Positions 4,923 through 40,637 of a stretch of DNA of 41,435 bases are shown here, piece after piece (position 1 is the stretch's first letter; every line of letters begins with the position of its first letter). The stretch is from a virus: positions 1-41,435 of the IMG/VR virus record IMGVR_UViG_3300032116_000474; one strand, 5' to 3'. Position numbers and translations under genes: made by a program. Under the pieces are notes generated by a model that did no database searches, was not told the origin of the DNA, and was given only the letters and a program-made list of their open reading frames with translations.

Positions 4923-5105
4923 ATGATAACAGAAGAAGATGGCCCAGAGTTTCAGATCTGGCTTGAAAATGGAATTGAGCGGGGATGGGTAACAGAACCG
5001 TTCTGTAATACTCATGATGGAGATCCATACATGAGTGAAGAAGAGCAGCAAGAATGGGAAGAGGGCGGAGACCCTTGCCAAGTAGTTTTAAAAATAAAAG
5101 AATAA
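4923..5105 (+). CDS. Small acidic protein, function unknown
   Basis: 60 residues, strongly acidic (Glu/Asp-rich, MSEEEQQEWEEGG), with two Cys and aromatic residues. No ribosome binding site; ATG sits at the predicted transcription start. I do not recognise the family. The long acidic run could mimic nucleic acid, but that is speculation. Confidence 0.75.
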   Translation: MITEEDGPEFQIWLENGIERGWVTEPFCNTHDGDPYMSEEEQQEWEEGGDPCQVVLKIKE

Positions 5106-5129
5106 ATCAACCAACAGAAAAGGAATAAA

Positions 5130-5921
5130 ATGAAAAAGATCGTAGCACTAGTAGCAGTATTGTTTTCAGTAGTAATGCCTATTCAGGCACACGGGTCAGA
5201 GCAAAAGTCTTTGGTAATTATTGATTCATATTTTGATTCAAGAGTTGTTTCAGGCTTAGTATCTTGCATTACTCCAAAGAACACGGCATGTGTTTACACA
5301 GCAAAGTTACCTTTGACAACATCGCTATCTAGCGACACAAACCATGGAAACGCAATGGTAGAAGTAGCAAAGAAACAAAATGCCTCAATTTCTATTATTG
5401 CTATTTCAGCATCAGGACCAAACACCCCAGTAAATGCTGGGCATTTTATTGATTCACTACGCTGGGTAGACAATAACTCTAGTAAGGTATCAGCAGTTTC
5501 TTTTTCTAGATTTTTTAATGGACGAGCAACATGTACACCTTCATCAACCAATACAGCACAGTATGGCGGAGTCATTGGGGCAGACCAAACAATTAAATCG
5601 CTAATTGGTTCATTAAAGTCTAAGGGTATCCCAGTATTTGCATCAACTGGAAACAAATTTGGAAAAAATATTGATTATCCAGCCTGTATTCTTGATACAC
5701 AGGCCGTTAGTGTTGGAGCAATGAACAAGAGTGGTGTGTTAGTTTCTTCGTATGCGCTTGACACAAATACAGACTATCTAGCAACATCAGATGTCTACAA
5801 CTATAATTCACCAGTTCTTGGTCTTATTGCGAACACAACATCTGCTGGTACGGTAGCAGTAGCAGCAACTTTTGTTACTACTAATCAGTTAACTGGTAAA
5901 GTTATTAATGTAAAGCCTTAA
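5130..5921 (+). CDS. Secreted subtilase-like (S8) protein
   Basis: 263 residues with a clear signal peptide (MKKIVALVAVLFSVVMPIQA). Motifs in subtilase order: VIIDSYFDS (Asp32), NHGNAMVEVA (His72), FASTGNKFG (Asn175, oxyanion), TTSAGTVAVAA (Ser238, in place of the usual GTSxAxP). All four catalytic positions are in the right order and at plausible spacing, though the protein is shorter than most S8 enzymes and the Ser motif is degenerate. Ribosome binding site AAGGAA in a leader AACAGAAA that recurs before several minus-strand genes. Likely exported by the host; the target may be envelope or competing proteins. Confidence 0.7.
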   Translation: MKKIVALVAVLFSVVMPIQAHGSEQKSLVIIDSYFDSRVVSGLVSCITPKNTACVYTAKLPLTTSLSSDTNHGNAMVEVAKKQNASISIIAISASGPNTPVNAGHFIDSLRWVDNNSSKVSAVSFSRFFNGRATCTPSSTNTAQYGGVIGADQTIKSLIGSLKSKGIPVFASTGNKFGKNIDYPACILDTQAVSVGAMNKSGVLVSSYALDTNTDYLATSDVYNYNSPVLGLIANTTSAGTVAVAATFVTTNQLTGKVINVKP

Positions 5922-5928
5922 AAGGTTT

Positions 5929-6001
5929 TGGGGTGTAACTCAGATGGTAGAGTGCCGAACTGTTAATTCGGATGTCGCAGGATCGATGCCTGCCACCTCA
6001 G
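5929..6001 (+). tRNA. tRNA-Asn (GTT)
   Basis: Acceptor TGGGGTG/CACCTCA, D arm, anticodon stem CCGAA/TTCGG with loop CTGTTAA (anticodon 5962-5964), T stem GCAGG/CCTGC. The T loop ATCGATG departs from the usual TTC. CCA is not fully encoded. A leaderless promoter follows immediately. Confidence 0.92.
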
Positions 6002-6005
6002 CAAA

Positions 6006-6014
6006 TGGTATAAT
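6006..6014 (+). promoter_or_regulatory. Extended -10 promoter, leaderless
   Basis: TGG plus TATAAT (6009-6014), then six bases, then ATG 6021. Confidence 0.8.
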
Positions 6015-6020
6015 CATATT

Positions 6021-6923
6021 ATGAAAAACGAAATGGGATTGCCTATATTGGAAAGATTTTTTGTAAAAAATATATCTACAAACTTCTTAAATGAATATTC
6101 GAATACTCCAAAAATAGATCCGTCCTATGGTGAAATAAAAAAGGAAAGATTTAGTCCTTCAGATCTAAAAGAATATTCTTTGATGTCCCATTATGATAAA
6201 AATAAAATATACTATAAATTAAATAAACACGGACATAGGTGTGAAGAGTTTGAAACACTAAATAAAAATAAAACTAATATTTTATTTGCAGGATGTTCTG
6301 TAACATTTGGAGAGGCATTGCCAGAAGGCTATACATGGGATAACCATGTATACAATAAAATAAAAAAAATAAATAGCAACATTGGACCATTTCATTCTTT
6401 GGGATATCCAGGAAATGGAACAGACCATATAGTAGACAACATTATTGGATATTGTAACAATTTTGGAAATCCAAACATTATTTATGTTCTTTTACCAGAC
6501 TACGGAAGAATGAAGTATTGGGATAGCAACCTTCAATCTTTTGAGACTATCTATTCAAATAGTGAAATAGATTATTCTTTAAATCAAAAAGATTTGCACG
6601 ACTTTCTTTTGGAATGTGTCAGGTCTATCCAGAGATTAGAATATTATTGTACTATAAATAACATATCTTTATTTTTAACAAGTTGGGATGCACCAACATC
6701 ATATATTCTTTCTAAGTTAAATTTAAAATGTTTTATATCTTTGTATAATTCTGAAGAAAATCCACAACTCCTATACCCGCTAGACTATAAGACAGAAGTA
6801 GAGCCATACTCAGGGTGTGATTTTCTTTTTGATGCAGCAGATAGCCAGCATTATGGATTAATGGGGCAACTTTCTTTTGCAAAAACCATCTATGAAAAAT
6901 CAAAAGAAACTGGTGTGATATAA
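6021..6923 (+). CDS. SGNH-like hydrolase/acyltransferase, paralog 2
   Basis: 300 residues, ATG at the predicted +1. LFAGCSVTFGEALPEG (Ser93) matches block I of paralog 1 almost word for word; GYPGNGTDHIV is the Gly block; DAADSQHYG (Asp274, His277) is the terminal Asp-His pair. The preceding KLNKHGHRCEEF also parallels KLNNFAHRCDDF of paralog 1. First gene of an operon that continues through two micro-ORFs to the carbamoyltransferase. AT-rich with many AAA/ATA codons. Confidence 0.8.
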   Translation: MKNEMGLPILERFFVKNISTNFLNEYSNTPKIDPSYGEIKKERFSPSDLKEYSLMSHYDKNKIYYKLNKHGHRCEEFETLNKNKTNILFAGCSVTFGEALPEGYTWDNHVYNKIKKINSNIGPFHSLGYPGNGTDHIVDNIIGYCNNFGNPNIIYVLLPDYGRMKYWDSNLQSFETIYSNSEIDYSLNQKDLHDFLLECVRSIQRLEYYCTINNISLFLTSWDAPTSYILSKLNLKCFISLYNSEENPQLLYPLDYKTEVEPYSGCDFLFDAADSQHYGLMGQLSFAKTIYEKSKETGVI

Positions 6924-7000
6924 TGATAGCAAGGATTAAATTTTATATATGGAAAAAAAGAAATAAAAAGAAACTAAAAAGAAAGAAGTATGTCTATTGA
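6923..7000 (+). CDS. Lysine-rich micro-ORF 1 (25 aa)
   Basis: A 25-residue ORF, MIARIKFYIW then a Lys/Arg run ending KRKKYVY. It starts within the stop of paralog 2 (TAATG) and its TGA overlaps the TTG start of paralog 3, so both ends are translationally coupled. It parallels the micro-ORF at 7845 in length, basic composition, MI..IK start and aromatic [KR][KR]-[YF]-[VI]-Y end. Could be a coupling peptide, an RNA- or membrane-binding peptide, or a toxin-like peptide; function unknown. Confidence 0.6.
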   Translation: MIARIKFYIWKKRNKKKLKRKKYVY

Positions 7001-39810: not shown

Positions 39811-40233
39811 TTAGAGATAACGAGCAACTGCGTTGTAAGTAGAAGTATTTACTACTTCCTCATCTGTCATTTTGAGGATACGAATTGCGTTAGACATTTC
39901 CTCTTTTTGTTCTGTGTATGAGTGGCGGTGTAGTTGCTCAAAATCACGCTCAGGCTCAGCAGGGAAATCCTTTTCTGAACCTACAATGTCAAAATCAACA
40001 TTGAGTGTCTTGTTCCAAGAGCGATAGTTGGTTCTGATGTTCTCAGCCTTTGAGAAATGAGCGATAGCGTAGTCTGCTAACTCTTTCTGCCAAGCCTTGT
40101 AAGCATCTTGATACTTTGCTTCGTTTTCGTCTTGTGTTTTGTAGTTAGCCTCTAGTTCTGCTAACTTTGTTTCTAGTGCGTTGATAACCTTCTGTGTAGG
40201 TATCTTTACGCTAATTGCTTTTCCTCTTGCCAT
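39811..40233 (-). CDS. Coiled-coil phage protein (140 aa)
   Basis: ARGKAISVKIPTQKVINALE, then a charged coiled coil (TKLAELEANYKTQDENEAKY) and KADYAIAH-like helices; C-terminal ILKMTDEEVVNTSTYNAVAR. Resembles a hypothetical family frequent in actinobacterial phages. Own TGTCAG promoter and AACAGAAAAGG leader. Confidence 0.85.
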   Translation of the reverse strand: MARGKAISVKIPTQKVINALETKLAELEANYKTQDENEAKYQDAYKAWQKELADYAIAHFSKAENIRTNYRSWNKTLNVDFDIVGSEKDFPAEPERDFEQLHRHSYTEQKEEMSNAIRILKMTDEEVVNTSTYNAVARYL

Positions 40234-40269
40234 TGTGTTTATTTCCTTTTCTGTTGTGGGTTAGTTTCT

Positions 40270-40291
40270 ATTATAGAGTGAGGGTCTGACA
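40270..40291 (-). promoter_or_regulatory. TGTCAG-class promoter
   Basis: TATAAT at 40275-40270, TGTCAG (40291-40286) 10 bp upstream; poor -35. Repeat copy C begins 3 bp further upstream. Confidence 0.8.
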
Positions 40292-40293
40292 TT

Positions 40294-40324
40294 GTGGTGA
40301 GCAGTTTAGACACTTACTCAGGTG
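40294..40324. repeat. Dispersed hairpin repeat, copy C
   Basis: GTGGTGAGCAGTTTA ... CTCAGGTG, close to copy A in sequence; the stem is imperfect (TGAG/CTCA). Located between the end of one gene and the promoter of the next. Confidence 0.75.
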
Positions 40325-40353
40325 CTTCGCAATTTATCGTTATGCGAGAACGA

Positions 40354-40521
40354 TTATTTGGCTGTCCAAGTTGTCCAGCGTGTGTTGCCATTTACATCTA
40401 ACTTCACACGAACTGCGTCACCTGTCTTGTTTGGTGCGATTTCCAAGATTGTGCCTGTCACCTTTGACTTTTGTGAAGTGTAGAGGTCGCCTACCTTGTA
40501 TGTTGCGTTTGATACTGCCAT
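40354..40521 (-). CDS. Small SH3-like protein (55 aa)
   Basis: From ATG 40521, after AAAAGGAG. AVSNATYKVGDLYTSQKSKV, GTILEIAPNKTGDAVRVKLD and TRWTTW read as a small beta barrel of the kind that binds nucleic acid or protein. A 92-residue form from ATG 40632 is possible because a second, leaderless promoter precedes it. Confidence 0.8.
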   Translation of the reverse strand: MAVSNATYKVGDLYTSQKSKVTGTILEIAPNKTGDAVRVKLDVNGNTRWTTWTAK

Positions 40522-40552
40522 TTTGTTTCTCCTTTTGTTAGTTGATAATCCA

Positions 40553-40581
40553 AGTATAACATTTCCTACTGACAAATACAA
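40553..40581 (-). promoter_or_regulatory. TGTCAG-class promoter
   Basis: TTGTAT-N17-TATACT with TGTCAG (40574-40569) 10 bp before -10; gives the 55-residue form. Confidence 0.85.
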
Positions 40582-40637
40582 ATTATGCCAGAAAAATCTC
40601 ACATCTTGGACTAGGTTGGTTTTTTTGTTCATAAGAT

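Follow-up and report, generated by a model that had tools for sequence, protein, structure and literature searches.

The window analyzed here is the linear IMG/VR virus record IMGVR_UViG_3300032116_000474, taken at its full length of 41,435 bases (36.6% guanine plus cytosine, GC), and the elements in question are start codons that lie six bases downstream of a promoter -10 box. It is highly likely that many genes of the phage clade represented by the window are leaderless, with a host-type promoter set so that the first transcribed base (+1) is the A of the start codon. The feature is real, is found across the clade and mirrors the translation habits of actinobacteria, and in two long relatives the leaderless starts appear to be largely confined to the genome outside the structural and replication genes. 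In the proposed mechanism, a promoter of the host-type housekeeping sigma factor (TATAAT, in many cases extended by TGn or accompanied by TTGACA at 17 base pairs, bp) would start transcription on the A of the ATG, and the ribosomes of a leaderless-competent actinobacterial host would begin on the 5'-terminal AUG without a Shine-Dalgarno (SD) sequence. One short element would then act as both promoter and translation start, forming a compact cassette that would allow independent expression of genes that are small, divergent or isolated and lie outside the structural and replication block.

Sixteen start codons in the window

An earlier note on this DNA had listed 16 ATGs, with exactly six bases between the -10 hexamer and the ATG at 15 of them and five bases at 24494, and reading all 16 confirmed this spacing. 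The sites and their open reading frames (ORFs, lengths in amino acids, aa) are:

4911-4925, plus strand: TACACT, six bases, ATG 4923 of a 60-aa ORF; TTGACA -35 at 17 bp
6009-6023, plus strand: TGn TATAAT, six bases, ATG 6021 of a 300-aa ORF, 18 bases past a tRNA-Asn gene
24483-24496, plus strand: TGn TATAAT, five bases, ATG 24494 of a GT61-family ORF of 345 aa
26606-26620, minus strand: weak CATTAT, six bases, ATG 26608 of a GT61-family ORF of 360 aa, divergent from 26626
26614-26628, plus strand: TGn TATAAT, six bases, ATG 26626 of a 229-aa ORF with a phrog_2859-like part
28374-28388, minus strand: TGn TATACT, six bases, ATG 28376 of a 2OG-Fe(II) oxygenase ORF of 192 aa, divergent from 28426 at 50 bp
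28414-28428, plus strand: TGn TATAAT, six bases, ATG 28426 of a 2OG-Fe(II) oxygenase ORF of 191 aa
30505-30519, minus strand: TGn TATCCT, six bases, ATG 30507 of a 40-aa ORF
31054-31068, minus strand: TATAAT, six bases, ATG 31056 of a 68-aa ORF; TTGACA -35 at 18 bp; divergent from 31114 at 58 bp
31102-31116, plus strand: TGn TATAAT, six bases, ATG 31114 of an 82-aa ORF
32785-32799, minus strand: TGn GATACT, six bases, ATG 32787 of a 47-aa ORF; TTGACA -35 at 17 bp; divergent from 32836 at 49 bp
32824-32838, plus strand: TATAAT, six bases, ATG 32836 of a 106-aa ORF, phrog_681 endonuclease (T5orf172 below cut-off)
33810-33824, minus strand: TATAAT, six bases, ATG 33812 of a 68-aa ORF
36454-36492, minus strand: TATAAT, six bases, ATG 36480, with an in-frame ATG 36456 24 bases on that is preceded by GAAGGA
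37084-37098, minus strand: TATAAT, six bases, ATG 37086 of a 72-aa ORF
40519-40644, minus strand: TACAAT, six bases, ATG 40632, with a conserved ATG 40521 behind AAAGGAG and its own TATACT box inside

A perfect TATAAT is present at 10 of the 16 sites; the hexamer matches at five of six positions at 28376 and 40632, and at four of six at 4923, 26608, 30507 and 32787. The claim that most boxes are preceded by TGn holds at nine sites, and the claimed lack of a ribosome binding site holds at 15, where no SD-like string occurs between -20 and -4, the sole such string being an AGGA at 4923 that overlaps its -10. The base at -1 is a pyrimidine at 15 of the sites.

It could be argued that an AT-rich genome yields TATAAT-like hexamers near ATGs by chance and that the six-spaced ones were picked. 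The expected counts are indeed above zero (1.4 for TATAAT and 3.2 for TA[TC]A[AC]T), and at least two of the listed sites fail the ortholog test given below. However, the spacing stands out from shuffled sequence: the window has 10 cases of TATAAT six bases before an ATG where 30 dinucleotide shuffles predict 1.4, with one case at distance five and none at seven, and TA[TC]A[AC]T was found 15 times against 3.2. For hexamers with at least five of six matches before ORFs of at least 30 codons, 12 cases were counted at six, the mean at distances 12-39 being 3.6 (Poisson P 3e-4). A peak at six was also obtained in 82 related loci and was absent from 50-kilobase (kb) segments of T4 (0/80, strict count) and P-SSM2 (1/40, at background), so that chance is hardly credible as the explanation. 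Before GTG, TTG and CTG, the window has TATAAT at distance six in 0, 0 and 1 cases.

Conservation and promoter anatomy in related phages

Relatives of the DUF932-type protein of the window are encoded in 386 viral_contigs stretches, of which the best 80 were kept. In the 82 related loci (1.34 Mb), from which only exact duplicates had been removed, 208 of 6454 distinct ATG starts (ORFs of at least 50 codons) have TATAAT at distance six, compared with 30 at distance seven and a mean background of 7.4 at distances 12-40. After clustering at 72% identity, 288 sites were retained at six, 80 at seven and 20 to 77 at other distances. Similarly, the pattern TATAATN6ATG gave 107 matches in 11 related records against 17 for the reversed control pattern. 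The excess depends on the ORF behind the ATG: the counts at distance six were 19, 34 and 18 in the length bins below 25 codons, like those at other distances, and 60, 139, 169 and 131 in the bins of at least 25 codons. Because the excess is limited to ORFs of at least 25 codons, the positioned element is the start codon and not any ATG. Leaderless initiation of very short ORFs was considered and rejected, there being no excess below 25 codons in the phages.

The promoters are of the housekeeping sigma (SigA/sigma-70) type, as seen from a -35 at 17 bp and/or TGn. TGn was found in 155 of the 288 sites, and 77 have a -35 with five or six of six matches (65 of them at 17 bp), where a control stretch gave 10. 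The base at -1 is T at a frequency of 0.66, C at 0.16 and G at 0.02, codons two and three are A-rich, and SD strings occur in 5% of the sites. When 189 distinct strong promoters were collected by TTGAC, 18 bases and a -10, the triplet at the predicted +1 was ATG in 98 and, as the second commonest, ATA in 24. The TGn, the -35 at 17 bp, the pyrimidine at -1 and the ATG at the predicted +1 together suggest that the A of the ATG is very probably the +1.

Ortholog counts were made on usable distinct sequences, with duplicates and matches too near a locus end dropped and the near-copies of the window (L002, L082 and L083) kept; the motif list was widened (e.g., by TATCCT) after inspection of the sequences, which favours the leaderless reading. 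Conservation is strong at 8 of the 16 sites. In the family of 4923, the -10 lies at six in 49 of 53 sequences, at five in one and at seven in one; many of its start codons lie 11-12 codons further upstream with the -10 again six bases before, and distance six was counted in 74 of 80. Distance six was kept in 34/34 sequences for 32836, in 8/8 for 31114, in 17/18 for 37086, in 19 of 21 for 33812 (the other two at seven), and in 21/24 for 30507 despite diverged upstream sequence. All three usable sequences agree for 31056, one of them being identical to the window, and for 32787 the score was 9/15 by a motif list without GATACT, the misses including GATACT boxes as well as L004 and L007, which have no good box.

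An alternative is that the promoters are real and the transcripts leadered, a downstream SD-led ATG being used while the first ATG is just a common initiating sequence. At 40632 this is most likely the case, and probably also at 36480; the relatives of both start downstream, mostly behind an SD, and the 24 of 189 strong promoters with ATA at the predicted +1 would also fit it. As a general account it is nevertheless improbable, since the excess at six is found only for ATGs opening ORFs of at least 25 codons, the families of 31114, 32836, 33812 and 37086 keep distance six in 78 of 81 distinct sequences, and an SD accompanies just 5% of the 288 sites.

The leaderless reading has to be weighed with several observations that speak against it. 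For 36480, distance six was found in 2/16 usable sequences and an SD in 14/16; the relatives start downstream or overlap the preceding gene, mostly with AAGGA or GAAGG, and this gene is probably not leaderless or has here a second start. For 40632, distance six was found in 3/53 and an SD in 31/53; in the relatives, a box such as TATACT precedes a leader some tens of bases long, with AAAGGAG before a conserved ATG equivalent to 40521 in the window, an SD preceding the conserved ATG in 11 of 14 aligned sequences, so that the gene is most likely leadered and SD-led from 40521. The failure of these two sites with orthologs means that a -10 at the right spacing does not by itself prove a leaderless start. 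Support is only partial at four further sites, and the scores there are generous because in-frame ATGs as far as 50 codons upstream were all accepted: 6021 has a -10 at six or seven in 7/20 homologs, most matches beginning near residue 60 and being uninformative on the start; 26626 has one from some in-frame ATG in 40/64 homologs (86 hits reduced to 64) with varying N-termini; and 28426 and 28376 score 11/35 and 9/38, both being kept in the close ortholog L010. No informative ortholog exists for 24494, whose only residue-1 match, L082, has the window's own sequence, or for 26608, where of four usable sequences the sole residue-1 match (L082) is again identical and the others match from residue 242. 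Two of the 16 listed examples, 36480 and 40632, are thus probably wrong. In a gene-call run, an SD-like string was present before some candidate start in 3/8 leaderless-class genes of the window, in 2/15 of the relative G001 and in 2/14 of the relative G006, the figures for the remaining genes being 21/50, 45/106 and 45/122, respectively. In the window, the loose pattern TAnnnT has no excess at six when all ATGs are counted (53 against 47.6), so the window excess needs a good -10, and TAnnnT six bases before CTG is above shuffles (48 against 30.7). The host order is our inference, and a host search by phage gene found no relative of the DUF932 protein in the bacterial genome_contigs.

With so many counts made, the TAnnnT-CTG excess may be fortuitous. 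In L002-L083, -10 boxes also become more frequent in a second and broader zone 30-36 bases before ATG, which would fit short SD-led leaders like that of ATG 40521.

Close relatives can carry the same gene in leaderless and in leadered form. In L003, the counterpart of the box before window ATG 36480 has ATA at the predicted +1 and is followed by an SD-led start, and the L010 ortholog of 37086 has AAAGGAAAG before the ATG instead of a -10 at six.

Density, divergent pairs and genome location

For comparison with bacteria, 80 freshwater actinobacterial loci were used that had been picked by a heliorhodopsin match and not at random; among their titles are Candidatus Nanopelagicales, Ca. Planktophila and strain LanE-43, the last being the host of two isolated phages (PMC10202952). 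Seven of the loci (L133, L140, L162, L173, L175, L164 and L155) have labels that look doubtful (Bifidobacterium breve, Streptomyces griseus or Clavibacter) and carry heliorhodopsins like those of lake actinobacteria. The same geometry is present in these bacteria. With a crude gene caller that misses very small genes, TAnnnT was found six bases before the ATG in 227 of 1081 called genes of the bacterial loci against a background of 19.5, an excess of 19%, and in tallies over four of the genomes behind these loci TANNATN6ATG gave 225 matches against 85 for the reversed control. The corresponding TAnnnT excess was 12.6% in the window (11/63, background 3.0), 8.6% in the two long relatives G001 (111,870 bases) and G006 (114,443 bases) taken together (34/260, background 11.5), and 4.9% in Streptomyces phage NootNoot (12/180, background 3.1). 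When a box with at least five of six matches to TATAAT was required, the excess was 12.3% in the window (9/63), 9.8% in G001 and G006 (30/260), and 2.4% in both NootNoot (5/180) and the bacterial loci (29/1081).

The earlier note had called this density striking for a phage. The geometry behind that statement holds, and the word striking is weakened, the sampled freshwater actinobacteria being higher by TAnnnT (19% against 13% in the window and 9% in the two relatives). The phages are thus no denser in leaderless genes than their probable hosts; it is the quality of the box that differs, near-consensus in the phages and degenerate in the bacteria, and part of this difference will come from GC content (38% in phage, 46% in bacteria). 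Leaderless GTG starts were also considered and were dropped because TAnnnT gave no clear peak at six before GTG (window 18 against 24.9, phage loci 33 against 46.4, bacterial loci 60 against 44.8).

The divergent pairs pointed out earlier are real, 61 distinct ones being found in the phage loci (sites at six or seven, within 120 bp), of which 46 are 37-58 bp apart with interlocked promoters. In 15 of the 61, all of the 32787/32836 type (window 32785-32838), exactly 49 bp separate the start codons, and the -35 of one promoter is just a base away from its partner's -10. With overlapping promoters, only one of the two should be usable at any time, and the interlocked 49-bp pair is a candidate one-at-a-time switch. 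At 26608/26626, the start codons are 18 bp apart and the hexamers overlap by five bases, the lower-strand box being weak. In geometry this resembles the symmetrical bidirectional promoters of Warman et al., for which 18 bp with overlapping -10 boxes is the commonest spacing (PMC10268837). Unlike those promoters, the 26608 hexamer of the window is weak and without an informative ortholog, and most phage pairs are 37-58 bp apart.

The location of the sites was compared in G001 and G006 inside and outside a block from RNR to TerL, the borders of which were set by the analyst from protein matches. The strict excess at six in G001 was 0.027 per kb in the block (5 sites, background 3.7) and 0.360 per kb outside it (28 sites, background 5.3); in G006, the values were 0.005 (4 sites, background 3.8) and 0.248 (24 sites, background 6.9). 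The structural and replication genes of both are therefore nearly free of leaderless starts. This split between arms and block is not general, some NootNoot sites lying among structural genes (28513, 42702).

The earlier note had further proposed that leaderless starts could favour 70S initiation late in infection, i.e., that they are a phage device exploiting 70S monosomes. It is known that 70S ribosomes can start leaderless mRNAs (PMC9031893), and the sequence itself gives no clue to timing. The scarcity of the sites in the structural and replication block of the two relatives speaks against a late-gene device, although timing itself is not shown by it, and no phage-specific device is needed because the freshwater actinobacterial loci have the same geometry. 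A phage initiator tRNA was considered as a helper and rejected. Initiator tRNAs have three G-C pairs in the anticodon stem, whereas the tRNA-Met at 30152-30226 has, as read by eye, a CCGAA/TTCGG stem without them and would not be an initiator. The late-infection proposal is thus unsupported and very improbable.

A tentative idea, to which we give a low probability, is that two regimes coexist, a structural and replication block with ordinary, often SD-led starts and arms made of small single-gene cassettes whose near-consensus promoters are joined to the start codon. The latter would form a leaderless regulon apart from the SD-led messages competing for ribosomes, perhaps expressed first on infection, with the interlocked divergent pairs acting as one-at-a-time switches.

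Clade, host and relation to known systems

The window is a member of an uncultured actinophage clade related to Stanwilliamsviridae. That it is an actinobacterial phage, as the earlier note had implied, is borne out by its nearest named matches, which are Streptomyces phages, and by the following gene, an actinobacterial-phage marker:

19261-19551, plus strand: WhiB-family gene (PF02467, 45.7 bits, above the family cut-off)

WhiB is also present in all three relatives tested. RNA reads from Rotsee Lake have been mapped to phages that encode whiB (PMC10914622). The top named matches of the DUF932-type protein are Streptomyces phages at 51% identity, the NootNoot protein being 52% identical to that of the window, and no megablast match to the window was found among named phages, so there is no near-identical named relative among them. 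The relation to Stanwilliamsviridae follows from G001 and G006 sharing TerL (53-54% identity), portal (47%), DnaE (52%) and capsid proteins with NootNoot, a member of that family; all matches of the G001 TerL among named phages (356 records) are below 60% identity. This lake virus family probably infects actinobacteria; the common leaderless geometry is no more than suggestive of Ca. Nanopelagicales as host. The freshwater phage DSL-LC01 was rejected as a comparison, having one partial protein match (50% query coverage, 40.5% identity), and it has no peak at distance six in the 49 kb analyzed.

Besides small ORFs, the window encodes GT61 glycosyltransferases and 2OG-Fe(II) oxygenases. A cluster at 22363-29001 holds three GT61 genes, the two divergent oxygenase genes and a nucleotidyltransferase gene whose product is HAD-like toward its C-terminus (below cut-off), and a carbamoyltransferase gene (PF02543/PF16861) lies at 7925-9346. 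Five tRNA genes (Asn, Glu, Arg, Met and Asp) were found at 5929-6002, 29620-29768, 30152-30226 and 37269-37343; tRNA-Asp is present in 7/7 relatives scanned, one of which (L002) is a near-copy of the window.

In Actinobacteria, genes led by a TA motif and taken as leaderless make up 19.2% of genes on average (Zheng et al. 2011, PMC3160421), which the rate of the freshwater bacterial loci (19%) matches. The phage sites are like these genes in having a TAnnnT/TATAAT core about 12 bp before the start and no SD. They differ in a near-consensus -10 (30/260 against 29/1081 in the bacterial loci), often with TGn or TTGACA at 17 bp, and in lying mostly outside the structural and replication block. Leaderless mRNAs in phages have already been predicted for a few mycobacteriophage promoters: three SigA-like ones in Cluster O (the Corndog group), including one divergent pair, PL1/PR2 (PMC4351075), and one gene of Adephagia (PMC11373665). 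As in Cluster O, the predicted +1 in our clade is the first base of the start codon, divergent pairs included; unlike the three promoters described there, about 17-23 excess sites are present outside the core block per 112-114-kb record, and this is clade-wide. NootNoot shares the feature, with a -10 at six in five and at seven in two of 115 analyst-picked annotated starts, and differs in its lower excess (2.4% strict, 4.9% TAnnnT, 180 called genes). No paper on genome-wide leaderless genes in a phage was found in the titles and abstract openings of the open literature, which is weak evidence of absence.

For annotation, such genes can be misplaced or overlooked by gene callers built to look for an SD or a spaced start, and since the promoter marks the start, a phage -10 at six points to starts even of ORFs of 25-60 codons. 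The uncultured lake phages thereby yield a set of strong, compact promoter-plus-start elements. In the evolution of these genes, start codons have shifted within the gene while the distance to the -10 stayed fixed, and the finding ties the translation starts of the phages to the leaderless habit of actinobacteria.

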